Source: Fervidobacterium pennivorans (lineage in GTDB: Bacteria; Thermotogota; Thermotogae; Thermotogales; Fervidobacteriaceae). Taken from it: a stretch of 64,000 bases of DNA. The notes under the pieces are model-generated. The model was not told the origin of the DNA, did no database searches, and saw only the letters and a list, made by a program, of their open reading frames with translations. Below are positions 6,436 to 34,420 of this stretch, in pieces. Position 1 is the stretch's first letter, and each line of letters starts with the position of its first letter. A program made the position numbers and the translations under genes. The stretch lies in NCBI RefSeq assembly GCF_001644665.1, contig NZ_CP011393.1, positions 766,001 to 830,000 of the forward strand. The letters are read 5' to 3'.

Positions 6436-6436
6436 G

Positions 6437-6664: not shown

Positions 6665-6677
6665 GTATAAAAACCAA

Positions 6678-6715
6678 GCTGGGAAACAGACAAAAAAAAG
6701 AAAAAGTTTCCCAGC
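6678..6715 (+). promoter_or_regulatory. Hairpin with A-rich loop upstream of the purine permease
   Basis: A perfect 10-bp inverted repeat (GCTGGGAAAC / GTTTCCCAGC) separated by an 18-base A/G loop, lying 13 bases after the upstream stop and 37 bases before the permease start. No T-run follows, so it is not a classical intrinsic terminator. It could be an mRNA processing or stability element, or part of a leader control region. The purine riboswitch core was looked for and not seen. Confidence 0.5.
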
Positions 6716-6752
6716 AAAAATTCCCAAAATCTTAGCGTGGGGGGAAAAGAGT

Positions 6753-9815: not shown

Positions 9816-9861
9816 CTCTATCACCCCCACAAGAGGTCTCAAAGGTGAAGATTAATCGAAA

Positions 9862-10536
9862 TCAGTCACTTTTCGAATAATACAAAGAATATCCCGTTGT
9901 GTATCCAAGAAGAAATCCATAATAAACATCTGAAAACCAGTGGTTTTTTGACCAAAGTCGTTGAAGTGAGAATATTGTCGGAACAACGTACCAAAACTTC
10001 CCGAACCTTTCGGCAATAGGTGTAAATATCGCCCAACTTATCGCGGCGTGTCCTGATGGGAACGACTGGTAGGCGTTTTCCATTGAAAAGAATTTAAAAA
10101 GAAAAGGATTTCCATTAACAAAAGGTCTTGCACGCCCCACCAGAAATTTTATAGTTCCTGTTATAAGCACACTCACTGCAAAACTTTCGATAACAGTCCA
10201 CGCTGTGTAGCTATCAAATGGAAATATCAATCCCGATGCTATTATTGAAATTAATGCAAAATCAAAAATATCAATGTCATTCAAGACTTTGAAAAAATCC
10301 GAGCTCGGGAGACTCTCGTTAACAGTGCTGTCGAGTGCGAAGCTAAACGCTCCTAATGAGAACAGATAAATTTGCGAATCATTGGTCTTAAATAAAGACG
10401 ATAAGTCCACTTTCAACTCGTCAAAATAATCCGCACTACCGCAAGTTTGACCAAATGATAGACTGAAACTGAGCAATATTACTAGAGTCATTGCTGCAAA
10501 AATAACATTTATGTTTAAAAATTTTAACTTCCCCAT
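9862..10536 (-). CDS. PAP2-superfamily membrane phosphatase
   Basis: A 224-residue phosphatase of the phosphatidic-acid-phosphatase type 2 superfamily, expected to dephosphorylate a lipid phosphate at the membrane. An N-terminal signal/anchor (VIFAAMTLVILLSFSLSFG) precedes several hydrophobic segments. The three catalytic motifs are present: KFLVGRARPF (~132-141), SFPSGHAA (~158-165) and a degenerate third motif around SKNHWFSDVYYG (~195-206). The ATG at 10536 follows AGGAGTGAGATTGG. It is transcribed divergently from the gene at 10690 and probably together with the hydrolase downstream. Confidence 0.85.
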   Translation of the reverse strand: MGKLKFLNINVIFAAMTLVILLSFSLSFGQTCGSADYFDELKVDLSSLFKTNDSQIYLFSLGAFSFALDSTVNESLPSSDFFKVLNDIDIFDFALISIIASGLIFPFDSYTAWTVIESFAVSVLITGTIKFLVGRARPFVNGNPFLFKFFSMENAYQSFPSGHAAISWAIFTPIAERFGKFWYVVPTIFSLQRLWSKNHWFSDVYYGFLLGYTTGYSLYYSKSD

Positions 10537-10689
10537 CCAATCTCACTCCTGGCAGACCGCGTTCTAAAAAGATTATACTCTCAATCTATTACTTTTCAAC
10601 CAACCACAGCCCTAACTTCACACACTTGTTTGAAAAAAAGTAGTATAATAAAAACGAAGAAACACGATTTAAAAGTGAGGTGATAGGTA

Positions 10690-11964
10690 ATGAAAGGGAT
10701 TAATTTTACTATAATCTTCATAATTGCAGTATTCGTAATAGGTGGCATCGCCATTTATGCTTACGAGCACTTTCGTTACTCTCCATATGCTCTCCAAGTC
10801 GATTTAGGAGTTGTCATAGAATGGCTTAGAGACAGACATGTTGACCTCGTTGATGCCAAATTAATTTATGAATTAACCAACACAAAACTAACAATCGATA
10901 AACGTCAAACACCATACGAGTTTGCCCTCGCGGTTTACCCGTTACTTTCGATTTTTAAAGACAACACAACCCGTTTGGAAATACCACTAAAATCAACGGA
11001 CAAAGTATTACCCTTAAGGTTTAAGTACGTCGATGGAAAAGTCGTTGTTTCGATGAGCGAATGTGAAATACCCGTTGGTTCGACTATATTGTCGATAAAT
11101 GGTTATCCTATAGAGGATATCTTAGAAAAGTATAAGAATTTGTATCCCACGTGTGAGAACTTCCAACAGGTCTACTCCTTCGTAGATAAGCTCCTACCAC
11201 ACTATCCTAAGATAATTGATGCAAGTACTTTACAAATAAAGTATCAACTACCCAATTCATCTGCTCAGCGCACATCTTACATCAAAACCATTTCCTTTAA
11301 AGATTTTCAAAAAGATATGCATTTAACACCCGTTGAACTATACAACCTGGGACAATACACCATTGTGAAGATTAACACCTTTAATATTTCAAAAAAAGAG
11401 GATATGAAAGTCGTAGAAGATGTATTTCAAAAATTGTCAAACAAGAACGGAAGCATAATTTTCGATTTGCGTTACGCCTCTGATGGTGATGCTACCATCC
11501 CTTCAGCCATCATCTCAAGACTTATAGATGAACCAACTTATCTTTACCCGAAACTAATAACACGCTATAGATACCGTCAAGTAGAAAAGAAGCAAATTCC
11601 CATTGAACCAGACAGCGCCAGAATTTCCAAAGACGTTTATTTCATTGTAGACAGTTCTTGTTTTTACACACCCCACAAAATTCTGCTTTCTTTTGTTGCA
11701 ACTAATAAGATTGGGAAAGTGCTAACAACAGAGAATGAAACAAGCACACTTTTCTCAGACCTTTCATTCTACACAGACGAGTTTTGGAAGATTCTTCCAA
11801 ACACAAGAGCTTATATTGTAATGCCGTTATCAAAGGTAATCGTTGAAAACAATTTAGAAGAGGACCAGATTCAAATTGTTAATCTGACCTTTAATGAAAG
11901 TCTGCTGTTCGACAAAACGGCATACAAAGACTGGCTTAAAGAATTCATTTCTAGAATAAAATAA
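10690..11964 (+). CDS. Membrane-anchored S41-peptidase-like protein, probably inactive
   Basis: A 424-residue protein with one N-terminal transmembrane anchor (~5-24) and a large extracytoplasmic domain. A PDZ-like segment (VPVGSTILSINGYPIEDIL, ~128-146) is followed by IIFDLRYASDGDA (~256-268), which resembles the S41/C-terminal-processing-protease strand. VYFIVDSSCFYTPHKI (~316-331) sits where the catalytic Ser would be. That Ser appears to be replaced (FYTPH instead of the usual FSAAE), so protease activity is doubtful. The ATG at 10690 follows GAGGTGATAG; a TATAAT hexamer at 10644-10649 is a likely -10. The next gene starts 31 bases downstream on the same strand. Confidence 0.5.
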   Translation: MKGINFTIIFIIAVFVIGGIAIYAYEHFRYSPYALQVDLGVVIEWLRDRHVDLVDAKLIYELTNTKLTIDKRQTPYEFALAVYPLLSIFKDNTTRLEIPLKSTDKVLPLRFKYVDGKVVVSMSECEIPVGSTILSINGYPIEDILEKYKNLYPTCENFQQVYSFVDKLLPHYPKIIDASTLQIKYQLPNSSAQRTSYIKTISFKDFQKDMHLTPVELYNLGQYTIVKINTFNISKKEDMKVVEDVFQKLSNKNGSIIFDLRYASDGDATIPSAIISRLIDEPTYLYPKLITRYRYRQVEKKQIPIEPDSARISKDVYFIVDSSCFYTPHKILLSFVATNKIGKVLTTENETSTLFSDLSFYTDEFWKILPNTRAYIVMPLSKVIVENNLEEDQIQIVNLTFNESLLFDKTAYKDWLKEFISRIK

Positions 11965-11995
11965 AGTCAGCAAAAAATCTTAGGGTGGTGAGAGT

Positions 11996-13060
11996 ATGTT
12001 CTCAGAAGGGATATTAGAACATCTTCAAGAAACGAAAGTTGTAGATTTTCTTGATGAGCTAGAAATACCTGCGTACGTTGTAGATAAAAACCGACGTATC
12101 GTTTTTTGGAACAAGCAGGCTACAAAGTTAACAGGTTACGAAGCAAATGAAGTAGTTGGTAAATTTTGTGCTGAACAAGTATTGAACCATGTTGACAGAA
12201 CGGGTATTCCTGTGTGTAATACTGAGCTGTGTCCACTTTATCAATCAATCAAAAATGGTATCCCAGTTCAAGTACCATTTGCGGTGTATGGACTTACCAA
12301 ATCAGGAAAAAGGCGCCCGTTTTCAGTTGTTGGTTTGCCCATAAAAAAGGATAACGAAGTACTTGGTGCCATTGAATTATTCACTGATGTCGAAAAAATG
12401 GATGCAGATATGAGCCTTGCTATAAGAATTCAAGAAAGTTTTGTCCCACAAAACACCGAAAATATCGAATTCTTCTATCGTCCATCTACTGGACTTGGAG
12501 GGGATATGATATATTACAATCCACCTTGGGTAGGCATAATAGACATAAGCGGACACGGTATTGCGGCTGCGCTTGTAAGTATGCTTGTTCGTACTACTTT
12601 GGATACAATAATTGCGTTCGACCCTCCATTACAAGGTTTACCGTTCCTTCTGGAAAACGAACTCAAAAAATTCAGCTTTCAAAACATATACCTCACAGGC
12701 GTTATTGGTCAACTTAGCGAAGGGGTTTATAGATTCGTTAACATGGGACATCCTTCACCAATAAATGTGACCAAAAAAACGTTGATTGAAACGAAAAATG
12801 TAATACCTGTCGGATTCGGGTTCTCTGAAGAATACGATGAATCCGTCATCAACACTCACAATCTAAACGATGGGAACTTGCTGTTGTATACCGATGGATT
12901 AACGGAAATAAAAACAAAATCGGGAATGCTTACTAGTCAGGGGCTACTTGATATACTTTCACCAAATGATACTACGTCGACGATATATCTCAAAACATTA
13001 CATTTGCGTGCTCCAGGTTTACAAGAAGACGATATAACTATGATACTTTTCAAAAAATAA
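11996..13060 (+). CDS. PAS domain - SpoIIE/RsbU-type PP2C phosphatase
   Basis: A 354-residue soluble regulator. Residues ~15-130 form a PAS domain (PAYVVDKNRRIVFWNKQATKLTGY is its canonical core, with two Cys in a CNTELCPLY segment). Residues ~140-354 form a PP2C-type serine phosphatase domain of the SpoIIE/RsbU class, with GLGGDMIYY (~165), GIIDISGHGIAAAL (~178-191) and LLYTDGLTEI (~298-307), the metal-binding aspartates. Such proteins act in partner-switching networks that control anti-sigma or anti-anti-sigma factors. No partner gene is seen next to it. The PAS cysteines could hold a redox cofactor, but this is speculative. An intrinsic terminator follows at once. Confidence 0.85.
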   Translation: MFSEGILEHLQETKVVDFLDELEIPAYVVDKNRRIVFWNKQATKLTGYEANEVVGKFCAEQVLNHVDRTGIPVCNTELCPLYQSIKNGIPVQVPFAVYGLTKSGKRRPFSVVGLPIKKDNEVLGAIELFTDVEKMDADMSLAIRIQESFVPQNTENIEFFYRPSTGLGGDMIYYNPPWVGIIDISGHGIAAALVSMLVRTTLDTIIAFDPPLQGLPFLLENELKKFSFQNIYLTGVIGQLSEGVYRFVNMGHPSPINVTKKTLIETKNVIPVGFGFSEEYDESVINTHNLNDGNLLLYTDGLTEIKTKSGMLTSQGLLDILSPNDTTSTIYLKTLHLRAPGLQEDDITMILFKK

Positions 13061-19688: not shown

Positions 19689-20588
19689 TTACTCCTCTTC
19701 AAAATAGTCCGAATCAATCTTTTTAATCTCAATAACACTATCCACACGCACTCCGAGGTTGTATTTAATCATATAATCAAGCAACTTGTCACCATCGATA
19801 AGAACGACTTTTATGTCCTTTATATTTTCAGCATATTGCAGAGCTTCTTTGGTAAACGATGCGGTTGTGATGAATATACCCTTTCTTGCACCCTTGCCAT
19901 GAAGTGCGCCAACAAAGCTTTGGATTTCCTTTCTACCTATCGATTGTCCAGGATTGTATCTTTTCGCTTGTAAGTATATATTATCTAGCCCGAGAACGTC
20001 TTCTTTAATCACCCCATCAATACCTTCATCCCCACTTTTCCCAAGCACTTTGCTTGCTTCTTCGAACGACCCACCATATCCCATCTTCACAATCAATTCC
20101 AAAACAAGCTTCTCAAAAAAATGAGGACTCTTTTCAAGAATCCTTCGTCTTAATTCGTCTTTGAGCTTTGCTTTAAGAACCTCGAGTTGTTCAGATATTA
20201 TTTCTTCGGGTGGTTGTTCAGTTGGATCGCCAGTATTACTATCCTCTGGCTTATCAGCGAGCTTTTCCAAATCTTTGGAATAAATCACTTTAGGATTCTT
20301 TTTCAATACATCCAAGCCTCGGTGCGTTATTCTATAGACACCCCTATAGACACCCCTCTCATTCTCTGGATATTCTATAGCTGAGGCTCTCCTTAAATGA
20401 AAAATCGCCCATCTAACTCTATTAATGAAGATAAAATCATTACCACTTGCAAGCCTCATCCTTCTTTCTTCTTCTGTAACGTTAAAATACTTGGTTAAAT
20501 GTTCGATTATATCTTTTATCGTATGTTCTTTTCCATCTGCAAGAAGTTCGAGGATGGGTTTATAACATTCAAAAGTTTTTGGAATCAT
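19689..20588 (-). CDS. Mrr-type restriction endonuclease
   Basis: A 299-residue nuclease. The N-terminal winged helix (~1-100; ILELLADGKEHTIKDIIEHL to ITHRGLDVL) is the Mrr_N domain. The C-terminal ~170-290 is the Mrr catalytic domain with the PD-(D/E)xK core DEGIDGVI (~207-214) and IYLQAKRY (~223-230), then FITTASFTKEA. Mrr enzymes of this type cleave DNA carrying foreign methylation. A perfect 12-bp tandem repeat (20332-20355) duplicates the residues GVYR in the linker of the winged helix. The ATG at 20588 has AGAGGAAG about 10 bases upstream. It is the last gene of a five-gene series on this strand that includes a methylase. Confidence 0.85.
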   Translation of the reverse strand: MIPKTFECYKPILELLADGKEHTIKDIIEHLTKYFNVTEEERRMRLASGNDFIFINRVRWAIFHLRRASAIEYPENERGVYRGVYRITHRGLDVLKKNPKVIYSKDLEKLADKPEDSNTGDPTEQPPEEIISEQLEVLKAKLKDELRRRILEKSPHFFEKLVLELIVKMGYGGSFEEASKVLGKSGDEGIDGVIKEDVLGLDNIYLQAKRYNPGQSIGRKEIQSFVGALHGKGARKGIFITTASFTKEALQYAENIKDIKVVLIDGDKLLDYMIKYNLGVRVDSVIEIKKIDSDYFEEE

Positions 20589-20637
20589 TTTGGATATTCT
20601 TCCTCTAAACGTTAATACTTATAGAATAGTCTCTCAC

Positions 20638-21276
20638 TTACTTCTTAAGTAATCTGTTATAATATTCTCTTCCCTTTTCTGTGATTTCCCAAATACCCCG
20701 TGGAGAATTATCTGATAAAAAACCTTGTCTTACCAAATCAAATCTCACCCACTGTGCAGCATTTTCCCAACGTATTTCTCCTGAGCTTGGTAGTTTCTGC
20801 ATATCGTACCATGTTAGTTTCACTTTCATTTTCTCATAGACTCGTTTGAGAACTTGTCCTATTTCTCCTTTTCCACCAAGTTCTATTAGGGATTCTAGTA
20901 TTGGAATAACATATTCCTCTTTTGGAGTCCTCATCCCTTTCTTTAGTCTTTCTTTCGCTTTCTTGATGACACGTTGTACTGATTCAGAATTGATAAGTTC
21001 ATCATCGTTTTTCTGAGTGCTTGTTTCAAAAGTCTCATTTCTAATCTCTTCCCGTTCAAAAATCTCTTGCCATTTTTTCTTAAGTGCTATTACTTTTTCT
21101 TTGTATTCTTTTACCTTCTGCCCCACTTCAATAAGTGCTTTTGCTTTTTCAAACTCTTGCTGTTTAGATAGCTCAGCAATTCTTTCGCTAAGATCGTTAA
21201 TTGCTATGTCAATTTCTTCTTCCAGAATCTCAAACGCAACTTCCACACCCTTGCTCTTATCTTTGCCGTCTGCCAC
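20638..21276 (-). CDS. Coiled-coil plus Mrr_N-like winged-helix protein (copy 1)
   Basis: A 212-residue protein with two parts. Residues ~10-75 are a long charged coiled coil (EEEIDIAINDLSERIAELSKQ). Residues ~118-212 form a winged helix (RTPKEEYVIPILESLIELGG, then IRWENAAQWVRFDLVRQGFL and GIWEITEKGREYY) very like the N-terminal Mrr_N domain, but no nuclease domain follows. It is clearly paralogous to the next gene upstream (21330-21986). It lies 49 bases upstream of the mrr gene and reads in the same direction. A DNA-binding regulator or accessory subunit of the neighbouring restriction genes is likely by context, but this is inferred. Confidence 0.75.
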   Translation of the reverse strand: MADGKDKSKGVEVAFEILEEEIDIAINDLSERIAELSKQQEFEKAKALIEVGQKVKEYKEKVIALKKKWQEIFEREEIRNETFETSTQKNDDELINSESVQRVIKKAKERLKKGMRTPKEEYVIPILESLIELGGKGEIGQVLKRVYEKMKVKLTWYDMQKLPSSGEIRWENAAQWVRFDLVRQGFLSDNSPRGIWEITEKGREYYNRLLKK

Positions 21277-21329
21277 CCTACCGCCTCCTAAAAATACTCA
21301 ATGTTAAAATTTCAGCACATGGGTTCGCA

Positions 21330-21986
21330 TTATTCTGAAGTTTGTCTCACACTATTATTACTCTTCAACTTTTCAACATGTTGTAGGTAATACTCTCTTC
21401 CTTTATCTGTTATTTCCCATATGCCGTTAGGAGAATTGGGTTCTAAGAGTCCCTCTTTAATCATCATTTTCCTTGCCCATCTTGCTGTATTCCTCCAACG
21501 AATCTCACCCGCGGGAATCTTTTCCAGGTCGTAGGTTTTTAGTTTGTTTTTCATCCTTTCAAAGACTAATTTTAGCACCTCACTTACTTTTCCTTTACCA
21601 TCAAGCTCGATTAGTGATTCAAGTATCGGGATAATAAATTCCCGTTCAGGAGTTCTCATACCTGTCTTATTGTTTTGTTTCAATTCTCTAGGAGCTTGCT
21701 CTCTTGCTTCGGAACTACCGTTTTGAGAACTGATTTCAATCCGTGTGATGATAGCTTTCTCATTTCCGATAATCTTTCTCCACTCTTCTTTGAAAGCAAT
21801 TAACCTATTCTTATACTCTTTTATCCTTTGGGCTATGTCAATCAACTTTTTAGTTCTTTCGAAGTCCTGCTTTTTAGAGACCTCAGCAATGCTTTTAGCA
21901 AGGTTGTTAACTATTTTACCGATTTCTTCCTCAAGCATCTCAAATGCTATGTTTACACCTTCTCTGACATTAATCTTGTTGTTCAT
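21330..21986 (-). CDS. Coiled-coil plus Mrr_N-like winged-helix protein (copy 2)
   Basis: A 218-residue paralogue of the downstream gene. It has the same coiled coil (EEEIGKIVNNLAKSIAEVSKK) and the same C-terminal winged helix (RTPEREFIIPILESLIELDG, IRWRNTARWARKMMIKEGLL, GIWEITDKGREYY). The frame is open to 22046, but ATG 21986 is preferred: it has GGGAGTGACAAT upstream and yields a protein matching the paralogue in length. The pair has diverged in the linker (~85-115) much more than in the winged helix, so DNA contacts appear to be the conserved part. A heterodimer is possible. Confidence 0.75.
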   Translation of the reverse strand: MNNKINVREGVNIAFEMLEEEIGKIVNNLAKSIAEVSKKQDFERTKKLIDIAQRIKEYKNRLIAFKEEWRKIIGNEKAIITRIEISSQNGSSEAREQAPRELKQNNKTGMRTPEREFIIPILESLIELDGKGKVSEVLKLVFERMKNKLKTYDLEKIPAGEIRWRNTARWARKMMIKEGLLEPNSPNGIWEITDKGREYYLQHVEKLKSNNSVRQTSE

Positions 21987-22322
21987 ATTGTCACTCCCAC
22001 AAGGATTTATCAAGATATTTCTAAAAGATATTCTCGTTCGATTCATAACGACGAAAGTTTACTTTTAACGTATTTAAAATCGTTTTATAAATAACTCTAC
22101 TGGACAATCAAAAATATATCCAAAAGCCGTTTGATGTTCTTTTATTAAATTAGCCATCGCTCCGCTCTAAATTGTTCGAATTTTTTCTTCATTTTCATCT
22201 ACCATTACTTGGTCATTGACTCACATTTTCTTGTGAATTATTAACACCGAAGAGATCGACATGTTTTATTTTTATTTAGGTGTTAGCCTTTTAAGATAAT
22301 CCGATGAAATCTTAAATTTTTA
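21987..22322. other. 336-base intergenic region inside the defence cluster
   Basis: AT-rich sequence between the methylase stop and the winged-helix pair. No supported gene or clear terminator was seen. It probably holds the promoter of the winged-helix/mrr group on the - strand, but no hexamer pair with good spacing could be identified. Confidence 0.5.
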
Positions 22323-25300
22323 TCAGCCTTCGTTTGTTCTAGATTCTTCGATAATTTGGATTTCATCTTCTGTTAAGTTATAGAACTTATAAACAATCCT
22401 GTCAATTTGTTTCTCCAAATCAGCAGTTTGCCTTTCAGAACTGTTCATCTTCAAATCAATGATTTTTTCCACAAGCTCCAAAATTGTGATAAAATCGGCC
22501 TGGTCAAGTTTTTCGATTTCAGGAATCGGAAAACGTCCAATGAACTCACCTTTTATCTCACCTTCAATACCTCCACCCATATAAAACTTGTAGAATGCAA
22601 ATTCAAAAAGTTCTGAGTTCAAAATTCCTAAGATAAATTTTAAAATTCCTGTGATTTTTGGAGTCCCAGACAGAATATGAGTTATAAAGTGTGTTGTTGC
22701 TTCGCAGTACAGGACTTCTGATACTAATGCAAATTTTGGCGATTTAGTCACCCTTTGCCAAACAATTTTTTCCTTCTCGAATTCGGAATAGTAATCGCAA
22801 TGTCTGAGTTCCCACCAATAGTCTCCACGATCATCCCTTGTGAACAACCCCTTCTGCCTTCCACGAAACTCTACATTTGAGAATTCCATGAAGTAATTGT
22901 AAAGTGAAGGGAAAGTTTGCCTGAAGAACTCTTCGGGGTTTAACAATCCACGGTTTTGGTTTGTCCAACCAGCCGGAATAAGAATCAACCACATCCCTGC
23001 CCATTGGTAATAATACCTTCCTATATCCCTTCCCCTGAGGACTGGTTTTATGATTTCTTCTGTTTTTCTTCTCTCTTCTTCTGTTTTGCAGTTTTTAAGT
23101 ATCCTATTACGTGTCTCTGTGTCTATGATGAATGCTTCATTGTAACCGGTCAGCACTCCTCGATAAATCTTAACATCCCAATCTTTCAGAGGTTTACCAA
23201 TCTTTTCGATTTTTTCCTTTATTGCCAAAATCCTGTCATCAGCAAGAGTCCATGCACTGTCAGAAAGTTTCGACTGGGGCATCTTTTGCCAATTGTTTTG
23301 AATGAATTTTATCGAATCTTCGACGTCACTTTTTACCTCAACATACTTAAGTTCGTGATTTAAGCTTGGTTTCTCTTTTTTTAGAAGAATTATGTTCGTA
23401 TCTACCGTCTGTTCAAATACTCTGTATCCTCCAAAGTCAACAAGTTCTAAAATTTGTGCGTTCTCCTTTAAAAACCTTCGGAGCTTTTCTCCATACTTTG
23501 CTCTCATCCACTTGTTACTTGTTATATATGTTAGTATCCCTTTATCCTTAAGAAGGCGGTATCCTTTTTCGTAAAAATAGACGTAAAGATCAGCAGTGGA
23601 TGTAAAAACTTCGTAATTTTGCTTTTCAAGGATAGGTTTAAGAGGTTTTATTCTTTCTTGCCTTACATAAGGCGGATTCCCAATGACTATATCAAATCCA
23701 TCTTTGACACCAAACATCCATTCTGAGTCAAACCAATCAGCCGAAGCATTTGGATCGAACGGGTCAAAGGAAGCAATCTTCTCCGCCGATTCACTTGGGA
23801 ATCCGACGGAGATAAGGTCTTTCTTTATTTTCTCTCTTAGTTTCTTATCTTTCTCTTGCAGTTGCACTTTTTGTCTTCTTGTTTTTGCAGTGAAATATCG
23901 GTGCCTTAGCCTTCGAAGTTCCTCAGCATCTTGGTGTATCACGCTTTCTCCAAGACTTATTTGTGTTCCTTTTTCAAGTCCTATTAGTGTATTTGCTGCA
24001 ACAAATTTTGTTTCAAGGTTTGGTAAGGGTCTGATACCGAAGTTTTCTTTCGTTTTGTCTATTTTCTGGTCTAATATGAGTGATATAAAGAACCTTAATT
24101 TAGATATTTGAACAGCTATTGGCTGGATGTCTACACCGTATATTGAGTTCTCGATAATGTATAATTTTCTTGCATAGTCGGGGTAGTTTAACGATTCATC
24201 AAAAACCTCCTGAAGTTCCTTTAACGCACGCTTTATTTCTTCATCGGTTATTTCTTGATCCTGAAATACTTGCACTATTTCCTCTCTTATCTTTTTTCTT
24301 TGGAGTTCCCTCCAATGTATATTCTCTGGGTCCAGTCTCTCTATAATATGAACAAGTTTGTGTAATATACCCATAGGGAAAGCGCCAGAACCACAAGCAG
24401 GATCAAGAATCTTTATTTCATCAATTGCTTGGAGCAACTTTTCCTTTTCGTTTTCAGAAAACTCCGGAAGCTCGTCACTGTAAGAAATCAATAGTCTGAT
24501 TCGTTCTTCTTCGATTTCTGGAACCTTGTCTTTCAAGTATTCAACTAAGCTTTCTTCAACCATAAAGTCAACAATTTCTCTAGGGGTGTAGTAGCTTCCT
24601 GTAGCCTTTCTTGCCGATGCTGATGTTTCTGGGTTATACGAAGCTAAAAGGTTTTCAAATACTTTTCCAAGCAATTCTGGGTCCAGCGCAATTTCTTCAT
24701 CTATTGGAGATGCTTCATCGGTAGTCCAGTTGTAGTCACGAAAGATGTTAAATAATCCTCGCACCTTTTCATTTCTTGAAAGTCCATAAGCTGATAAATC
24801 GGCTATGATTTCCTTGTCATTAAAGAACAAATAGTCTGGTATTATCGCTTGCTTTGAAGGATTTCTTGAGAAGCCGTCTATATATACAACCTTATTGTTG
24901 TTCTCTGGGTCTTCTTTGTCGAGGCAATCAAACAAACCACCGTTCAGAAAAGGAATATCCCTAAAAAGTTCAAGAACTTCTTCTTTAGAGATGAGAAACT
25001 TGTCAGCATAGCGATAAAGGGTCTTCACTCCATAATGAGGATTGTAAGGTTTTCCACCTTCAGAAGCAAAAGCACGGTCTTTTTGCCTTTGATTCAGTGT
25101 TGCAAAGAATAAGTTTTGAAGGATAGCGTTGTAGTAGTTTCTGCTTTCTTCATTCACAAGAAAATCCTTGACAATGTGTTTAAGCTGGGATTCGTCGAAC
25201 AATTTTTCGGGTATTAGTTCTTTTTCCCTGAGAAACCAAACAAAAATTAGTCTTGTCAGCAACCTGATTAAATTTGTTGCGTTTCGGATTTCTTTATCCT

Positions 25301-25901
25301 TTTCTGGATCGTCTGAGAATCTGTAATCTTCAGGGAACTTGACCTTGTCCATTGCATAGAAGTACCAGGCCTGAAGTTCCTTGTAGAACTGCTTGGTAAG
25401 CGGTTGAACGGAGAATGCTTCTTTAATTTCTTTCAGGTTTTTCCAAGTGACATCTTTGAGTTGCGTAATGAATGTCTTAAACGGACGCTCTTTTGAAAGA
25501 AAGAATGTGTATCGTTTATAGTGAGAGTATTTTTCTTTTGTTCCAAAATATTGCTTGTAGACAAAAGAAATTCTAAAATTCCTATTCTCATCATGGAAGA
25601 AGAAGATTCCAGCATCTGCGAATTGGTTCGAGAGAATTTTCTTTGCAATCTCGAATTGCCGCTTCTTCGAACTTCTTTCCGTTATTGTCCCATCCATTTT
25701 CACCAAATAAAAATGTAGTGTGGCACTGTCGTCAAGTTCCAGAAGTCCAATTCGTATTACCGGCATTTCCAAACCCGGTAGTTCGACATATTCCAGCTCA
25801 CGTTGGAAATCAGGATTGCGTTCTTCAATGTAGTCAATAACAATATTTTCAATAGGCTCATTCGAATTTAGAAGTTTTTCGACAAAGACCTCCGTTTTCA
25901 T
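22323..25901 (-). CDS. Eco57I-type N6-adenine DNA methyltransferase, large
   Basis: A 1192-residue protein with adenine methyltransferase motifs: ILDPACGSGAFPMGIL (motif I, ~497) and NPPYVRQERIK (motif IV, ~739). A TaqI-like/Eco57I specificity region follows (GVLTGYNEAFIID, LRGRDIGRYYY, and a segment near ~1100 with YCEATTHFITH). The N-terminal ~400 residues hold a helical region without a recognisable PD-(D/E)xK motif, so it may be modification-only. Size and layout fit the large methylases of phage-defence systems (PglX-like) and type IIL/IIG enzymes. It starts at ATG 25901, 30 bases after the helicase gene, so the two form an operon. Confidence 0.8.
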   Translation of the reverse strand: MKTEVFVEKLLNSNEPIENIVIDYIEERNPDFQRELEYVELPGLEMPVIRIGLLELDDSATLHFYLVKMDGTITERSSKKRQFEIAKKILSNQFADAGIFFFHDENRNFRISFVYKQYFGTKEKYSHYKRYTFFLSKERPFKTFITQLKDVTWKNLKEIKEAFSVQPLTKQFYKELQAWYFYAMDKVKFPEDYRFSDDPEKDKEIRNATNLIRLLTRLIFVWFLREKELIPEKLFDESQLKHIVKDFLVNEESRNYYNAILQNLFFATLNQRQKDRAFASEGGKPYNPHYGVKTLYRYADKFLISKEEVLELFRDIPFLNGGLFDCLDKEDPENNNKVVYIDGFSRNPSKQAIIPDYLFFNDKEIIADLSAYGLSRNEKVRGLFNIFRDYNWTTDEASPIDEEIALDPELLGKVFENLLASYNPETSASARKATGSYYTPREIVDFMVEESLVEYLKDKVPEIEEERIRLLISYSDELPEFSENEKEKLLQAIDEIKILDPACGSGAFPMGILHKLVHIIERLDPENIHWRELQRKKIREEIVQVFQDQEITDEEIKRALKELQEVFDESLNYPDYARKLYIIENSIYGVDIQPIAVQISKLRFFISLILDQKIDKTKENFGIRPLPNLETKFVAANTLIGLEKGTQISLGESVIHQDAEELRRLRHRYFTAKTRRQKVQLQEKDKKLREKIKKDLISVGFPSESAEKIASFDPFDPNASADWFDSEWMFGVKDGFDIVIGNPPYVRQERIKPLKPILEKQNYEVFTSTADLYVYFYEKGYRLLKDKGILTYITSNKWMRAKYGEKLRRFLKENAQILELVDFGGYRVFEQTVDTNIILLKKEKPSLNHELKYVEVKSDVEDSIKFIQNNWQKMPQSKLSDSAWTLADDRILAIKEKIEKIGKPLKDWDVKIYRGVLTGYNEAFIIDTETRNRILKNCKTEEERRKTEEIIKPVLRGRDIGRYYYQWAGMWLILIPAGWTNQNRGLLNPEEFFRQTFPSLYNYFMEFSNVEFRGRQKGLFTRDDRGDYWWELRHCDYYSEFEKEKIVWQRVTKSPKFALVSEVLYCEATTHFITHILSGTPKITGILKFILGILNSELFEFAFYKFYMGGGIEGEIKGEFIGRFPIPEIEKLDQADFITILELVEKIIDLKMNSSERQTADLEKQIDRIVYKFYNLTEDEIQIIEESRTNEG

Positions 25902-25931
25902 TTTCTTATTCCTCCTTAATCGTTAAGATAT

Positions 25932-28900
25932 CTAACGGGTATTCTCTATCGATATCATAATCTCTATTTTTGGTTTTGAGAGCTGGACGTTCTCGAGGTA
26001 ATCTTTACCGCCGAGCTGGTTCACTATTTCGTCAATCCTCTCCTTTAACTTGTTGATTTCGCGAGATGATATTTCAGAGGAATTTTCAAAAACTTTTCCA
26101 ATTCTTTCTATCTCCTTCAGTGTGGCTTCCGGTAGCCCACCGAATGTTTCAATGTGTTTTATCAACAATTTGATTACTTCGTGGTGACTTTCAAGTTCTG
26201 GATGATTAAGTAGTGTTTTAAGAGCATTGTAGGCTTTCCTTTCATTTTTAGATATTTCCTTCGTGTGCTTTTCCAGAGATTTAAGATGTTCCTTTAGTTT
26301 ATTGTACGCTTCCCAAAATCTGTTGTTTAGCTTATTTGACCTACAGTTTGCATCACAGCGGATGTCAGAAAGTACATCAATTAAATCCAGTGTGTCTTCA
26401 ATTTCCTGTGTAGCATAGTTGTATCGGATTATAAAGAGACTGTTGTTTTTCTTGACAAAGAGTATTTGATTTTCGTTACCCTCACTCTTTTTCGATACCT
26501 TAACTCTAGGTGGCATGTTACTTATTCTTTCTTCTATATCTGGAATGAGTCTTTTCAAGTTATCGAATTCTTTCATAGCTATTGTTAGCGGGCTCTTGTC
26601 ACCTTCTGCTGTTCTCTCAATCTCATCGTAATTTGTAAGTTTACTGTAGAGTTTAGATGCACTTGGTTCTTCATCTTCTGAGAATATTTTTGCATCCTCA
26701 CCAAGGGCGTTATGGATAAGGAAAAGCTTTGTCTCAGCAATCTCGCGTTGTTTGATCTGTTCTTCACCTTTTTCAGTAGGGAAGAAATTGACTATATAGA
26801 GTTCGTCGTATATCTTTTGACCAATTCTATTAATTCTTCCAACTCTTTGAATGACCCTGACAGGGTTCCAGGGAATATCGTAGTTTATTACAACACCAGC
26901 TCTTGCCAGATTGAAACCCTCTGATAACTTATCAGTAGCTACAAGAACATTGTAGTCGTCTCTCCTCTTATCCTTTTTTACAGTCGCATCAAAGTTAGAC
27001 CTTATCTTTTCAAGTAGTTCATTTGTGAGATCATTGTCAACTGCCAGCAGTTTAAATTCTTGTGATAGGTGATCCCTTATGTACCTTACAGTATCACGAT
27101 ATTCTGTAAATACTATTATCTTTCTTGATGGGTTCTCGTTTATCAGTTCGTAAAGTGTAGATTTGAGTGTTTCTATCTTTGGATCGACCTCTGTCAATTT
27201 TAGGTCTTCCATTTCAATAAGAATAGACTGAAGGAGTTCCTGGTCATGCTTTATATGTTCTATGAATTCTTCTTTTTTCTTAAACTCAGATATATCGTAT
27301 ATTGAGTTTCTATCAACCTTGGAAGCTCCATTTAATCCCTCAGCCAATTTTTGTTCAATGAGCTCAAACACTTCATCATCTTCGAGCTCATCCATTTCTT
27401 CAAGGATTTTTCTATCAAACGTATAATAACCATATCTTTCTATGAACTCTAAGATTCTCTCACAATTTGTCATTATTGTTTTTACGGAATTTCTGAATGC
27501 TCCAAAGCTGCTTTCAAACCGTTTGACTAGTAATCTTCTTATTAAGTCCTTTAAATTTTTCTGACTTAAATACTCAAAGTTGGATTCATCGTTGTCAAAA
27601 ACACCTTCCCTGTAAAAGTAAGGGGTGTATATTGCACCTATGAATTTGCCAGGTTCTCCGAAGTAATCGTTTATGACTCTGTCGTAGAATTCTGATTGTT
27701 CTTTTGTTAGTTCATAGAATTTACCGATTGGATCTTTGACAATTGACATTTGACCAACTTCTTCTTTATATCTTGGGTTTTCTTTCAAATCAATTCTGTT
27801 TCTTCTGATTATCACAGGCTCGATAAACCTTCTAATCTCTTTGGATAATTTCTTTATTCGCTCTTCTACCTCGTTAATTTCTTCCTTACCAATAGAACTT
27901 ATCGTTTTCTTGAAAACCTCTTGATACAGTCGGACTAACTCGTCTTGCTTTTTTTGGAGTTTTGCGTATTTCTTAATTTTTAGGAGCTTTGAATACTCGG
28001 ATTGAAAACGCGCTATCTTCGATTCAATGTTTGGTGACAAGTCGATAGTGGAGTTCTTAGAGCTTTGGAAAAGCTTAATCAAAGAGAATATATCAGATGG
28101 TCTATTGTTAAATGGTGTTGCTGTCAGAAGGATTACTTTTCTTCCGAAGCAAACGTTGTAGAGTTTTTCATAACTCTTTGTTTTTGGATTCCGAAACCTG
28201 TGTGCCTCGTCAACAATAACCAATGAAACTTCGGGGTTTTCTCTCACGTATTCGAGCGGTTCATCAAGCTTACCAATGGAAAATACCTCCCAGTCATCCC
28301 TCATTCTGAACTGCTTGAGATACTCTTCCCACATATTTACCAAACCAGGAGGTGCAATTACTATACCTTTTTCCCTAAGTATCTTCGCAATCCCGAGAGC
28401 TATCACTGTTTTACCAAGACCAACAACATCGGCAAGGATAACTCCAGAATGGTTCTCTAATTTGGAAATAGCATCCTTTATAGCATCTATTTGGTATGTG
28501 AAAACTGTGTAATTATTCTTAGAAAGTAATTTTCTAAACTCATCTACTGGATGTTTTGGAATTGCTGAATCTATGTATGTTTTCAATATGTATGCATAGG
28601 CTTCAACAGGTGACACACTTTTTCCGGGATGGGTTTCTTGTGAAAGGATTCTAATAAACTTTTCCTTCCATTCTTGTTTCTCAGTAATTGGAATTGAACT
28701 ATTCCAGAGGTCTGAAAAGAATTTATATGCTTCTTGAAATCCAAAGTCAGAGATTTCAACATTGAACTCCTGCTGTTCATTTAGTCCTGCTTTTGTTAGA
28801 TTGCTACTTCCAGTAATGAATAGACCAGGTCTAATTGTTTTGTCGGCAAGATGGAATATATAGAGTTTTGAATGGTTTGGTTCCCTTGTTTTCCTCACCT

Positions 28901-29267
28901 GGATTTTTCCATCACTAATATATTCAATTAGCTTTTGAAAAAGTTTGTAAGAATCAGCATTATCCGTCATTTCATCGTTAAATGCAACTTTTATTGATTC
29001 AAAAAACTTTTCCACACTTTCACTTCTTGACTTGGTATCATTATAAGCAAATTCATATAGTAAGTCTTCATTCTTACCGACATCCAGACCTACGAGAATT
29101 CTCATGGTCAATTCAGGATTTTCTTCAATTGCTTTATGAATAAGATTGTAACCAGATAGATAAAAAAATCCGACAAGAATATCTACTTGCTTAGATACTC
29201 TGATAAGCTCATTAAGACGCTCGTTTAAGGTTTTCCCTTCATTCTCTCTATTGGTAATTATGTACAA
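25932..29267 (-). CDS. PLD-nuclease / SNF2-type helicase fusion
   Basis: About 1111 residues. The N-terminal ~160 residues are a phospholipase-D-type nuclease module with HSKLYIF (HxK, ~130) and GSSNLTKAG (~150). Then comes a superfamily-2 SNF2-like helicase: ADVVGLGKT Walker A (~281), VIVDEAHRF (~351), LLTATPFNN, and the C-terminal lobe SEGFNLARAGVVINYD and QRVGRINRIGQ (~780-815). The last ~250 residues are helical. A DNA translocase linked to a nuclease next to a methylase is what a restriction-type defence system needs. The frame extends to 29339, but the TTG at 29267 has GGGGTGATGAGT before it; ATG 29273 is the alternative. Confidence 0.82.
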   Translation of the reverse strand: MYIITNRENEGKTLNERLNELIRVSKQVDILVGFFYLSGYNLIHKAIEENPELTMRILVGLDVGKNEDLLYEFAYNDTKSRSESVEKFFESIKVAFNDEMTDNADSYKLFQKLIEYISDGKIQVRKTREPNHSKLYIFHLADKTIRPGLFITGSSNLTKAGLNEQQEFNVEISDFGFQEAYKFFSDLWNSSIPITEKQEWKEKFIRILSQETHPGKSVSPVEAYAYILKTYIDSAIPKHPVDEFRKLLSKNNYTVFTYQIDAIKDAISKLENHSGVILADVVGLGKTVIALGIAKILREKGIVIAPPGLVNMWEEYLKQFRMRDDWEVFSIGKLDEPLEYVRENPEVSLVIVDEAHRFRNPKTKSYEKLYNVCFGRKVILLTATPFNNRPSDIFSLIKLFQSSKNSTIDLSPNIESKIARFQSEYSKLLKIKKYAKLQKKQDELVRLYQEVFKKTISSIGKEEINEVEERIKKLSKEIRRFIEPVIIRRNRIDLKENPRYKEEVGQMSIVKDPIGKFYELTKEQSEFYDRVINDYFGEPGKFIGAIYTPYFYREGVFDNDESNFEYLSQKNLKDLIRRLLVKRFESSFGAFRNSVKTIMTNCERILEFIERYGYYTFDRKILEEMDELEDDEVFELIEQKLAEGLNGASKVDRNSIYDISEFKKKEEFIEHIKHDQELLQSILIEMEDLKLTEVDPKIETLKSTLYELINENPSRKIIVFTEYRDTVRYIRDHLSQEFKLLAVDNDLTNELLEKIRSNFDATVKKDKRRDDYNVLVATDKLSEGFNLARAGVVINYDIPWNPVRVIQRVGRINRIGQKIYDELYIVNFFPTEKGEEQIKQREIAETKLFLIHNALGEDAKIFSEDEEPSASKLYSKLTNYDEIERTAEGDKSPLTIAMKEFDNLKRLIPDIEERISNMPPRVKVSKKSEGNENQILFVKKNNSLFIIRYNYATQEIEDTLDLIDVLSDIRCDANCRSNKLNNRFWEAYNKLKEHLKSLEKHTKEISKNERKAYNALKTLLNHPELESHHEVIKLLIKHIETFGGLPEATLKEIERIGKVFENSSEISSREINKLKERIDEIVNQLGGKDYLENVQLSKPKIEIMISIENTR

Positions 29268-29363
29268 ACTCATCACCCCAACACGACATTTTAAAATATT
29301 CTCCAAAAAGTAATGAAATGACATTTCAACAAAGCACAAAAGTTTTTAGGTTCCTCATTTAAT

Positions 29364-29611: not shown

Positions 29612-31524
29612 CTAAACTTTCTCTATCAAATCATTCGGCAACTTCTCAACAAAATCAGGCAAGTCTTTATGTGGGTTATCTTCCCTTTTGTGCCATTGCG
29701 ATTGGGAGATATACAAAATTTCTTCCGCCCTCGAGATAGCTGTGTAAAGTATCCTCTCTTCTTCGTCGAGTAAGCTTTCTTGGACTGAGCGAGAGTCAGG
29801 AAAATCACCAAGATTAACTCCTAAGATAAAGATGATTTTCCACTCTTTACCTACTGCTTGGTGAACTGTTGAGAGGGTTATCGCATCTGTATTGGATATA
29901 TCAAGATTATCAGGATTTCCCAGTGACAATATATCTGAAGCCAACGTGATGTCGTCGATAAAGTCTTTGTTGGAAAAGTATCCACTTGCAAAGGTTATTA
30001 GCTTTTGTATGTTCCTATCGATTTCGCTGAGCTTGTTTTTGATTTCGTACTTTTGTGATATTGTGCTTTTACAGAAGTTTTCGTAGAAGGTCTTTAGTTG
30101 TTCGTAGTGTAATTTATCCATGGAGTCTTTGAACACCTGTTTTAGTAATGCTAAGTCGCAGTTACTTACACTCATTTCAAAGAATGCATCAAGCGGATTT
30201 TGAAAGTCTCTAAGCACGTTCATTACCCTAAACGCAACCTCATCGTCTATACCTTCGATATTTACAAGAATCCTATACCAAGCTATCGAATCAAACGGAT
30301 TTTGGAAGATTTTGAGAAAGGAAATCATGTCTTTTATGTATGCTTGGTCTTTAATTCTTTTATCTGAGTAGTTGACGTATGGAATTTGTCTTTTACGCAA
30401 TTTTCTTTGCACGTTGTAAAGGTAGTCGCTTTTTCTTGATAGCACAGCAATGTCTTTATATGTATATCCTTGCGCTGAATGTTTTTCTATTATTTGCACT
30501 ACCTTTTGTGCCTCTTCCTCGTCGTCTTTGGCAATAATAACTACTGGCTTTTGCGTCCCTTGTTGGGTAGCATTCAATTCTTTTGGAATTGCGCTTTTTG
30601 GTAGGAAAAAGTTGAGCAGTGTGACTATTTTGTCTGTGCTTCTGTAATTGGTTTTGAGTGTCAAAATCTTTGAGTCTTTCATGACATCTTTTAGGTTATC
30701 AAGCCTTGCTCCGGCAAAGGAATAGATGCTCTGTGCATCGTCGGCTGTGATGAAAAAGTGGTTATCTGATAAAAGTTTTTTGAGAAGTTCGTATTGGATG
30801 GGAGTTGTGGGCTGAAAATCATCGACAAAGAGCCATTTGTATTGGGATTTGATTTGAGAGCGGATAGTCGGTTTTTCGTTTAATAGTTTGATTGTTTTAA
30901 AAAGTAAGTCTTCAAAATCTAGTATGTTGCGCTTTGCCTTTTCTTGTTCGTAAGCGTTGTAAAATTTCTCAACAAGTGATTTGGCATTTGGCCGATTTTG
31001 GAATTGCTTTTCGATAAGTTAAGAAAGTGGAGTGCAGGTGTTGATTGAATCTGAGTACAGACTGTAGAGTATGCTTTCGTGGGCAAGGTAGTAATCTGTG
31101 TAAAATGCTTCGATATTTTTGTTTAAACTTAGTAGTTTCATGTACTCTTTTGCATCGTGTTGGTCGAAGATGGTATAGTTTGGTGATATATCTATTTCAT
31201 TTGCGTATGTTCTGAGCCAGGTGTTGCATATGGTATAGAACGTGCCGGAAAGAATTTTATTTTCACATAGGTTAATTTCTGTTATTTTTTCAACAGTAGA
31301 GATTATCTGCTTGGCGGATTTGTTTGTAAATGTGAAGAGCAAGATTTCAGAAGGCTTGACATCACTGAGTAATAGATAGGCAATCTTGTTTGCAATTAGT
31401 GTAGTTTTACCAGTCCAGGTCCAGCGAGGAGGATTGTTTTTTTATCGGACATTTTAATAATTCTTCGTTGGTATTCATCGAGACTCTTAAATGCCCAAAA
31501 CACTTTTGAGGTTTCTTTTTCCAT
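29612..31524 (-). pseudogene. UvrD/Rep-type superfamily-1 helicase, broken twice
   Basis: Reading from ATG 31524 the frame gives KTILLAGPG and is then lost by one missing base in the Walker A motif (near 31412-31418). The next frame restores TGKTTLIANKIAYLLL and FTNKSAKQI. An in-frame TAA at 31019-31021 follows, and the same frame continues with ILDFEDLL, WLFVDDFQPTTPIQ, DDAQSIYSFAGARL and NYRST, ending at 29612 with the C-terminal motif TLSTVHQAVGKEWKIIF and LYTAISRAEEILYIS. All helicase motifs can be recognised, total ~637 residues, so this is a recently inactivated small UvrD-like helicase rather than an ancient ruin. A ribosome site AAAGGATGA precedes the start. Confidence 0.82.
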
Positions 31525-31981: not shown

Positions 31982-33337
31982 TTATTGCGTCTTCACTGCG
32001 CCTTTTGCTCCTTTAATAGTGTAGAAAGTGCCCTTCCCTGTTTTTCCAATTCTTTCCAAAATGTTTAATTTTACTAGCTCGTTCAACTCGTACCCAGCCA
32101 TTCTTTCTTTCACACCAGTTAATTCCTGGTATTCTTTGTTCGTTATTTTTCCAGTTCTTTGTACGTAAATAACTGCCATTATTTGTCTCTCATTTAGACC
32201 CATTTTTCTAAGTTTATCTTCAGTATACATGTCTTTGTATAGGTAAACAGAAAAACCTCCATTCTCTTCCTTAAATTCTGGTTCAGGTAAGCCTTGGTTT
32301 AGACAAGAGTCGATAATTCTGCTTGTTCCAGTTCCCCATTGTTCTATCATTCTGGCATAGTAAAATACTCTGGCGATAATTCTGTTCCTTGGTTTAGAAA
32401 TGTGTACAGAGTTTTTCAGATCCTCAACTCTTATTCCTTCAGGTAGTGTTCCGGGGTTCCAAAACCATATTGCATTGTCGAAGATTTTAATTTGCGTATC
32501 TTGTTGCACCGCGTAATCTCTGTGGACAAGCGCGTTTATTATTGCTTCTCGTATCGCAATAAGAGGATAGTCCCAAATTTCTTTTCGTTCAGTGGCATTT
32601 TCAAAGGAAAATCTGACATTTATATTCTTTTTAATAGCCTCGTAAACTATTTCGAGCTGTCTAAAAAGGTTACCAACAGCATCAACTGTATCAAGTATCG
32701 AATTACTCTTGCCAAATCTCCCTATACGCACCCAGGGAGCGTCTATTTGTCTTGATGGGTCTTTTCCGAATAATAAAACTCCGGCATTGTTCAAATACCC
32801 ATCTTCTGACATTAGTTCAAGATTGTAGAGTACTTTCTCAATCGAATCGTCCTCTGAAATAGCTGATAATCTTTCTTTTGCAAGTTTTTTGAAAAGTTCC
32901 ACAGTTGAAAGGTCAAGTTGATCGATGGTTACTGAAGTAGGAGATTTCTCCCAAGATTTTCCAAATTTCTTAAATATGAACCTTGTTAATTCTTGACCTG
33001 TGAGTTCTACTGTATTGCTTCCTGAACGTACATATATTTTTTCATCATAATAAACGGGAGTATCATATTGTTGGACAGAGATTACGAGTATGTTTTTACC
33101 ATCAACCACCTTAATCTCTAAAGATGGAATTATCCCAAGGGAGTTTTTTACTTTGTTTGGAATATATTCCAGCAATTTCTGAAAATTTTGAACACCGACA
33201 ACTTCATGGTTGTCTTTTATGCCGATTATCAGTTGTCCGCCTTTTGTATTTGCGAAAGCACACAAGGTTTTAAGGTATTCATCCTTCCAACTTGTTTTGT
33301 ATTCAATTTCTTCATTTTCAAACCTCAGGTCTTTCAA
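31982..33337 (-). CDS. AlbA_2/Schlafen-domain ATP-binding transcriptional regulator-like protein
   Basis: A 451-residue protein of the COG2865 type. The N-terminal AlbA_2 domain (~1-115; EEIEYKTSW, LCAFANTKGGQLIIGI) is the Schlafen-like nucleic-acid-binding fold. The middle (~250-360) is a GHKL-type ATPase-like region with AIREAIINALVHRDY, FWNPGTLPEGI and QWGTGTSRI. The C-terminus (~390-445) is a winged helix (LNERQIMAVIYVQRTGKITNKEYQELTG). Genes of this kind often accompany type I restriction loci. Start TTG 33337 has GGAGGGATAAAC upstream. An IS has landed 16 bases upstream of that ribosome site, cutting the gene off from its former upstream neighbour. A paralogue lies at 45860. Confidence 0.8.
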   Translation of the reverse strand: MKDLRFENEEIEYKTSWKDEYLKTLCAFANTKGGQLIIGIKDNHEVVGVQNFQKLLEYIPNKVKNSLGIIPSLEIKVVDGKNILVISVQQYDTPVYYDEKIYVRSGSNTVELTGQELTRFIFKKFGKSWEKSPTSVTIDQLDLSTVELFKKLAKERLSAISEDDSIEKVLYNLELMSEDGYLNNAGVLLFGKDPSRQIDAPWVRIGRFGKSNSILDTVDAVGNLFRQLEIVYEAIKKNINVRFSFENATERKEIWDYPLIAIREAIINALVHRDYAVQQDTQIKIFDNAIWFWNPGTLPEGIRVEDLKNSVHISKPRNRIIARVFYYARMIEQWGTGTSRIIDSCLNQGLPEPEFKEENGGFSVYLYKDMYTEDKLRKMGLNERQIMAVIYVQRTGKITNKEYQELTGVKERMAGYELNELVKLNILERIGKTGKGTFYTIKGAKGAVKTQ

Positions 33338-33361: not shown

Positions 33362-34420
33362 GATAATGTTAACTAAAAGTATTGAAACTTTCCAAAAACC
33401 GCATTATCCTTATAAAGAGGGGACACCCCCCAACCAACTCTCGACAAAGGAGGTATCCCGATATGAACAACTCAACACTCTCTTGTCCAAAATGCGGTTC
33501 CACCAGCTTATACAAAAACGGTCACGACAAATACGGTAACCAACAATTCCTTTGCAAACTCTGCCATCATTCCTTCAAACTTTCCCATTCTCAAAAACGC
33601 AAAAACTTTCCTTTCCCATATCCCAAATGCTCTTCTTGTGGTAAAGCTATGGAAATTTACAAAGTCCGTCGCTCTTTCGTTGTCTTCCGTTGTAGAGCTT
33701 GTCGTACCAAAGATAGAGTACCTTTTAACCTCCCCGAACCAGTCACCCTTATTCCTGAGAAATTTAAATATTTCCGCTTCCCTATCTTTTTCGTCTTAAA
33801 GGCTTTTGTTTTGTATATGAAACACAATATGTCTTATCGCTCTCTTGCTCATTCTCTTAATATCAAAGTATCTCATGTCACCATATACAAATGGGTTATT
33901 AAATTGTGTACTTTATTCTCTGTACTTTTCCCAACATTTACCATCGAAAATGTTTTCTCAGTTCATGCTGATGAAACTGTTCTTGTGTTCAAAGAACAAA
34001 AGTACTATGTTTGGCTATTAGTTGATCACGAAACTAACTTAATTCTTTGTTGGCATGTCTCAAAGTATCGTGATATGGGACAAGTCAAAGTATTGCTCGA
34101 GAAGTTCTTTGGTAATTCAAAACCTAAAAACATTGAACTTATTACTGATGGACTTGGTGCATATGAAAGTGCAGTAAAGCTGTTGTTCAGAAATATCAAT
34201 CACGTAGTGGTACCGCTCGGTAAAAACAATCAATGTGAATCTAAGTTTTCATTGTTGAAAGACTTTTTCCGACTCAAGCGAGGGCTGAAGAATACGAAGA
34301 ACTTAGCGAAATATATTCAAGGATTTTGTGTAGTGAAGAATCTTTGGAAAACACACAATGGCAATATCAATTGCATTCTTTCACACTTACACTCTTTCAT
34401 CACTACAAGTTAACACTATC
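33362..34420 (+). mobile_element. Full-length insertion sequence, 1059 bp, with 8-bp target duplication
   Basis: Ends GATAATGTTAACT (33362) and the inverse of GATAGTGTTAACT (34420) form imperfect terminal inverted repeats (12 of the outer 13 bases match). It is flanked by perfect GATTCACT repeats at 33354-33361 and 34421-34428. One gene, the transposase, fills it. The 8-bp duplication and the DDE layout fit the IS6-like group. It is the only intact copy in the window and the probable source of transposase for the three MITE derivatives and two decayed left ends seen here. Confidence 0.93.
33463..34413 (+). CDS. IS6-like DDE transposase with N-terminal zinc ribbons
   Basis: A 316-residue transposase. 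Two zinc ribbons open it (CPKCGSTS / CKLCHHS and CSSCGKA / CRACRTK, ~8-85). A helix-turn-helix region follows (SYRSLAHSLNIKVSHVTIYKWVI, ~125-147). The DDE catalytic core has VHADETVLV (first Asp, ~175), ITDGLGAYES (second Asp, ~237) and NNQCESKFSLLKDFFRLKRGLKN (Glu, ~266). The ATG at 33463 follows AAAGGAGGTATCCCGAT. The stop codon is formed within the right inverted repeat. Fully open and with all catalytic residues, it should be active. Confidence 0.92.
   Translation: MNNSTLSCPKCGSTSLYKNGHDKYGNQQFLCKLCHHSFKLSHSQKRKNFPFPYPKCSSCGKAMEIYKVRRSFVVFRCRACRTKDRVPFNLPEPVTLIPEKFKYFRFPIFFVLKAFVLYMKHNMSYRSLAHSLNIKVSHVTIYKWVIKLCTLFSVLFPTFTIENVFSVHADETVLVFKEQKYYVWLLVDHETNLILCWHVSKYRDMGQVKVLLEKFFGNSKPKNIELITDGLGAYESAVKLLFRNINHVVVPLGKNNQCESKFSLLKDFFRLKRGLKNTKNLAKYIQGFCVVKNLWKTHNGNINCILSHLHSFITTS

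Follow-up and report, generated by a model that had tools for sequence, protein, structure and literature searches.

Two neighbouring genes of Fervidobacterium pennivorans, one for a PLD-SNF2 protein and one for an N6-adenine methylase, raise the question of whether two proteins can provide both restriction and modification and, if so, which of them cuts the DNA. Within the analysed stretch of 64,000 nucleotides (the window), translated ORFs show both frames open on the minus strand, and the spacing of 30 bases given in the sequence-only reading is exact (Table 1). The helicase ORF (25932-29339) counts 1135 aa from its first TTG, and start sites in relatives suggest the ATG at 29273 as the probable start of a 1113-aa protein. 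The earlier length of about 1111 aa, counted from a TTG at 29267, is accordingly corrected by two codons upstream. Pfam recognizes PLDc_2, RE_NgoFVII, SNF2-rel_dom and Helicase_C in this protein, and the motor residues K310, D377-E378, R835 and R838 are invariant among the aligned relatives. On the methylase the Pfam matches are Eco57I, N6_Mtase and TaqI_C, with no nuclease family among them, and both the length of 1192 aa and the TaqI-like specificity region stand as first described. Searches of the whole genome (a single contig of 2,061,852 bases) found no other methylase relative at E ≤ 0.001 and no match to Methylase_S (PF01420), so the absence of a separate specificity subunit holds genome-wide; as had been proposed, specificity is built into the methylase chain.

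Table 1. Features of the PLD-SNF2/methylase locus in the window and of its three-gene relatives
Feature	Position	Strand	Basis or remark
PLD-SNF2 (HKD-Swi2/Snf2) translocase-nuclease gene, predicted	25932..29273	-	translation, Pfam, start from relatives
PLD nuclease domain, residues about 23-235 of the 1135-aa frame	28635..29273	-	Pfam, relatives
Active-site set H156-x-K158 ... G177-S-S-N180 ... E191	28767..28874	-	invariant 16/16 and 54/54
SNF2-type motor with insert, residues about 270-885	26685..28532	-	Pfam, alignments
Intergenic gap of 30 bases with AAGGAGG ribosome-binding site before the methylase ATG	25902..25931	-	sequence
N6-adenine methylase, Eco57I/TaqI type, 1192 aa, ATG start	22323..25901	-	translation, Pfam
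Methylase N1 domain, residues 1-140, proposed dock	25482..25901	-	fold models, alignments, covariation
AdoMet motif DPACGSGAF, methylase residues 500-508	24378..24404	-	translation, alignments
Catalytic NPPY, methylase residues 742-745	23667..23678	-	invariant 54/54
TaqI_C-like target recognition domain, methylase residues 952-1126	22524..23048	-	Pfam
Three-gene Thermaceae relatives	L161:4578-11363; L160:3837-11378		specificity gene between methylase and PLD-SNF2 helicase

The pair recurs in other genomes. A helicase search across 103 genomes of the phylum gave matches in 70, often through nothing but the shared motor, and 18 helicase loci were examined with their neighbours. A methylase relative is directly adjacent in 14 of these 18, mostly a few bases away or overlapping, and no third gene is conserved among the 14 paired loci. 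Two loci (L047 and L049) have a helicase without an adjacent methylase, L008 holds the first 136 codons of the methylase at a contig end, and L046 is cut off. When the methylase alignment was run against named genomes, 80 loci from many bacterial phyla came up; a PLD-SNF2 gene lies in the flank at 58, seven with full flanks lack it and 15 are truncated, which amounts to pairing in 58/65 assessable loci and absence of the helicase from the examined flank in 7/65. Given such recurrent adjacency the gene arrangement is not a matter of chance, and the description of the pair as a self-contained two-gene unit is borne out. The N-terminus can be compared in 18 of the 22 methylase loci that come without a helicase, and all 18 resemble a paired N-terminus.

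The distribution of catalytic residues bears on the site of cleavage. The set compared consists of 54 pairs, namely the window, 13 phylum loci and those 40 of the 80 named-genome loci in which the methylase and helicase ORFs both exceed 1000 aa; its division into groups A and B follows a distance cut-off of 0.81 to the window helicase, chosen by the analyst. The PLD set HxK...GSSN...E (H156, K158, G177-N180, E191) is invariant in all 54 full-length helicases, as are the checked motor residues and the methylase NPPY in all 54 pairs; seven complete helicases missed by the initial pattern do carry the PLD motif. The helicases of L111 and L148, which are split or short frames without the PLD motif, lie outside the 54. 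In the methylase N-terminus an [EDQ]xK pattern occurs in only 8/54 members (2/30 in group A, 6/24 in group B), and the window methylase has K-M-D at the aligned positions. A nuclease of the methylase's own was therefore rejected, no catalytic pattern being found by Pfam, alignment or fold comparison. A nuclease motif in this N-terminus was the finding named beforehand as the one that would overturn the earlier reading; the pattern is absent, while an endonuclease-like fold is possible. Because the methylase N-terminus has no catalytic pattern here and in most relatives, sequence comparison places cleavage most likely in the helicase, in agreement with the proposal that it has shifted to the PLD domain.

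The same residues weigh against a decayed locus, in which the methylase would survive as an orphan regulator after the loss of restriction, as proposed for B. subtilis DnmA (PMC9973331, excerpt). Besides that precedent, the locus has UvrD-like fragments and short Mrr_N proteins as neighbours, which represent broken or partial genes; both frames of the pair, however, are full length and retain every conserved catalytic residue that was checked, which makes decay decidedly unlikely.

The N-terminus of the methylase was modelled with AlphaFold (pLDDT 90 for residues 1-400 and 95 for residues 1-159). The model runs helix, three strands, helix, strands, an order that agrees over residues 1-140 with the α-β-β-β-α-β core of the restriction-endonuclease-like fold. 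For the small model the top VIA match, over residues 1-157, is DrdV 4-143 (7lvv), with Z 7.3 and rmsd 4.8 over 122 residues, where unrelated entries reach Z 5; the second is Cas4 SSO0001 (Z 6.4). The DrdV stretch is, we assume, the endonuclease domain of that enzyme. Further matches of this model include HsdR, FokI, a Holliday-junction resolvase, SPARDA and tRNA-splicing endonucleases, and the listed nucleases, Cas4 included, presumably share the restriction-endonuclease-like fold. Racemases and pyrophosphatases reach Z about 5 in the same comparison, and proline racemases, family II pyrophosphatases and pieces of acetyl-CoA carboxylase rank similarly to the nucleases in Foldseek and VIA. No Foldseek match has an E-value below 0.001, and the N-terminal alignment profile gave chance matches only against PDB sequences. 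In the larger model, residues 138-398 match MmeI (Z 8.6). Residues 1-140 may thus adopt a restriction-endonuclease-like fold without its catalytic pattern, an assignment that is suggestive only, given how unrelated folds score and how weak the Foldseek E-values are. The missing catalytic pattern is a firmer fact than the fold.

In Type I and Type ISP enzymes the methylase and the translocase must communicate, and the methylase part responsible is usually found only by structure determination. Here, covariation over the 54 pairs points to one domain of 140 residues, distinct from those for catalysis and specificity. Distance matrices were compared after dropping one near-identical member (53 non-redundant pairs). 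Methylase residues 1-140 (N1) follow the helicase with r 0.94, and the correlation falls along the chain to 0.45 for residues 141-300, 0.32 for the core (426-700), 0.11 for residues 701-870 and 0.06 for the specificity region (871-1150); label shuffles for residues 1-300 set the 95% limit at 0.06 for the whole set. Within the helicase itself, the PLD part and the motor part correlate at r 0.93-0.95, as tightly as N1 does with the helicase. Within group A the N1-helicase correlation is 0.90, with a lower rank correlation of 0.70, and within group B it is 0.95 (rank correlation 0.93). Single pairs illustrate the same pattern. The window and L045 share 23% identity in the helicase and 17% in N1, against 52% in the core (426-700); L035 and L098 share 57% in the helicase and 39% in N1, against 25% in the core and 13% in the specificity region; and L035 and L044 share 33% and 24%, against 62% and 55%, respectively.

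In most pairs the end of the helicase gene adjoins the methylase N-terminus, so linkage might by itself produce such covariation. Five pairs of the set depart from the order helicase-then-methylase, four with the methylase first (L043, L121, L122, L146) and one divergent (L084), and N1 keeps r 0.87-0.93 in each, so gene contiguity was rejected as the cause. Saturation of the core is an unlikely cause of its low correlation, because the core shows the stronger conservation of the two (mean distance 0.60-0.70 vs 0.89 for N1). From these alignments we read N1 as the portion of the methylase matched to the helicase, the core and the specificity domain being exchanged between systems, and a physical contact between N1 and the helicase may be presumed. 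A stronger form of this proposal, to which we give roughly even chances, is that residues 1-140 are a nuclease-dead endonuclease domain serving as a docking plug and that the rest of the methylase is an interchangeable cassette, open to acquisition by a single motor lineage from systems only distantly related. Titles and abstract openings of open-licence papers yielded no description of the N1-helicase covariation.

The same data bear on whether the methylase might be a self-sufficient Type IIG enzyme with the PLD-SNF2 gene as an independent neighbour. PADLOC does place the methylase in REase_MTase_IIG, and its N-terminus resembles the DrdV endonuclease domain by position and, weakly, by fold; yet that N-terminus has no catalytic pattern, the helicase accompanies the methylase at 58/65 assessable loci, and N1 tracks the helicase, which together render this explanation highly improbable. 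PADLOC lists the two halves separately, as C3a139 (HKD+Snf2) and REase_MTase_IIG. The C3a139 model aligns with one group B helicase almost from end to end (424 bits). Full-length matches to PDLC03596 of REase_MTase_IIG come from the methylases of L038 (1428 bits) and L159 (1394 bits), each of which has a PLD-SNF2 partner gene. The window proteins match much more weakly, with 117 bits for the helicase (C3a139) and 379 bits for the methylase (PDLC03596). "Type IIG" calls on some large Eco57I-like methylases may name the non-cutting half of a two-gene system.

It is likely, in our judgement, that the pair forms an ATP-dependent restriction-modification system in which the functions of a Type ISP enzyme are shared between two proteins and the methylase docks through N1. 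This two-protein reading is based on the domains, the conserved catalytic residues, the recurrent pairing, the lack of a second specificity gene and the N1 covariation; from these we infer a complex, recognition by the methylase for both functions, translocation, cleavage and a role in defence. Several observations weigh against it: the seven assessable methylase loci without a helicase, the lower rank correlation of N1 in group A, the additional genes in group B and in Thermaceae, and the lack of phage protection by the conserved DnmA-YeeB-YeeC locus of B. subtilis (PMC9973331). The C-terminal specificity domain of the methylase would recognize an asymmetric site, and N6-adenine methylation by the same protein would protect the host DNA. 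The N-terminal 140 or so residues would recruit the PLD-SNF2 protein, whose motor would translocate on unmethylated foreign DNA, and paired PLD domains would cleave the two strands, either at the site itself or at a distance from it. Pairing of the PLD nuclease for cutting both strands is probable by analogy with the SauUSI dimer (PMC7913695, excerpt).

If N1 is indeed the dock, target specificity could be exchanged without disturbing the motor interface, a property useful for building restriction specificities. Should the cassette proposal also hold, the family would constitute a modular two-part restriction platform, and many enzymes filed as stand-alone Type IIG would be half-systems.

Two genes are not the universal form, because a further gene is found in group B and a third in Thermaceae. 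Plasmids of Allomeiothermus silvanus and Thermus oshimai carry a full-length helicase relative (about 38% identity) after two genes, the first for a methylase of 787/744 aa with N1 and the core, and the second for a protein of 327/412 aa that aligns with the specificity end of the methylase profile. Specificity is thus split off onto its own gene, as it is in Type I systems. A frameshift or annotation effect may lie behind this split, since the two Thermaceae frames overlap slightly. The statement that there is no separate specificity subunit is thus valid for the present genome and not for these two plasmid-borne relatives. The two-gene form also occurs on a plasmid, in Parabacteroides distasonis. 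Group B loci often include a further gene of about 550 aa, and the three such genes that were scanned encode two SMC/AAA-type ATPases and one TIR-TPR protein. In L088 (9710-11371) and L102 (7482-9149), both of group B, an SMC/AAA_15-like ATPase gene directly follows the methylase, and this ATPase may have been added to the system in that branch. L084 has two methylases of the same family (3939-7466 and 9627-12776) next to just one PLD-SNF2 gene in divergent orientation, an arrangement that would suit a motor shared by two specificities.

In the window the locus sits among other defence-like genes (Pfam, PADLOC), all but one of those described here on the minus strand. Three Mrr-related genes lie in tandem just downstream of the methylase (19689-22046), encoding two short proteins that end in Mrr_N and one with Mrr_N and Mrr_cat (PADLOC mREase_IV); these may be Type IV restriction genes that are duplicated or incomplete. 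Directly upstream, a UvrD/GajB-like helicase in at least two pieces (29612-31342; C-terminal 356 aa, N-terminal 107 aa) is probably a broken gene, and PADLOC found no GajA among eight neighbours. Farther along are two proteins with Schlafen AlbA_2 and HATPase_c_4 domains (31982-33337 and 45860-47170) and, on the plus strand, a transposase (33382-34413) with an IS6-type DDE domain and an InsA/IS1595-like zinc ribbon that scores below the NCBIfam IS6 cut-off. A protein of 1327 aa with DUF4011, an AAA helicase and REase_MTES_1575 (41529-45512) resembles what we take to be a known single-gene antiphage helicase-nuclease.

Whole-genome searches also separate the pair from several known systems. There is no match in the genome to DUF499, to PglZ, which sets the pair apart from BREX, or to MZB/DUF1998 (PF09369), which we take to mark DrmB and whose absence distinguishes it from DISARM. 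The separate HsdS (PF01420) of Type I systems is lacking as well. The absence of DUF499, PglZ and MZB/DUF1998 argues against a BREX-, DISARM- or Pgl-like exclusion system, in which the methylase would mark the host and the helicase-nuclease, possibly aided by partners encoded elsewhere, would stop phage from replicating but make no site-directed cut. The helicase does cross-match DrmD, BrxH and HmaA (NCBIfam, PADLOC), and the BREX-related (BR) Type-2 systems of Hma relatives join an N6 methylase to a Swi2/Snf2 helicase with an N-terminal HKD nuclease (PMC12839542, excerpt), the same fusion as in the window. Those systems, of which a DUF3780 gene is a further feature, differ by their DUF499 ATPase and by a DUF1156 helical domain that Pfam does not find on the present methylase, and a third gene is not conserved in the paired phylum loci. 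Exclusion is, on balance, rather unlikely, and restriction by a docked methylase-translocase pair is the reading retained.

Type ISP enzymes such as LlaGI and LlaBIII are defined by a nuclease, an ATP-driven translocase, a γ-methylase and a C-terminal specificity domain (PMC3874165, excerpt). The same four activities are predicted here, likewise without a separate S subunit. However, Type ISP enzymes are one polypeptide, whereas a stop codon and the intergenic gap divide the two frames here; their nuclease is Mrr-like (PD-QxK/ExK) instead of PLDc_2/RE_NgoFVII, and the present methylase has an additional N-terminal domain. ATP-driven translocation and cleavage of unmethylated DNA by collision further characterize Type ISP. 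With Type IIG/IIL enzymes (Eco57I, MmeI, DrdV) the methylase shares the order N-terminal domain, helical connector, γ-methylase and specificity domain, the last two on one chain (Eco57I, N6_Mtase, TaqI_C), but it has a PLD-SNF2 partner in place of a PD-(D/E)xK cleavage pattern of its own. SauUSI and NgoAVII/CglI combine a PLD nuclease with an SF2 motor, the PLD domain being dimeric with HxK (PMC7913695, excerpt). SauUSI, of Type IV, differs in reading methylated DNA with its own SRA domain, and NgoAVII/CglI in having a motor subunit distinct from the one that carries both PLD and B3 specificity. In the DnmA-YeeB-YeeC locus of B. subtilis the neighbours of an MmeI-like methylase without a nuclease motif are a helicase gene and a gene for a putative nuclease, and the locus is conserved, yet gives no phage protection in B. 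subtilis; YeeC is a separate gene of T5orf172/GIY-YIG type, and the excerpted account reports no PLD-SNF2 fusion (PMC9973331).

No description of a two-gene PLD-SNF2 and Eco57I-type pair was found in the titles and abstract openings of open-licence papers. The pair is not filed as Type ISP, Type IIG, BR Type-2, BREX, DISARM or Type I, because a defining feature of each is lacking. The division of labour that the sequence-only reading called unusual is less so in the light of the related systems already published (PMC12839542 and PMC9973331, excerpts). As far as those excerpted accounts go, the pair is a variant of a design type already represented by the BREX-related Type-2 systems, DnmA-YeeB-YeeC and SauUSI.
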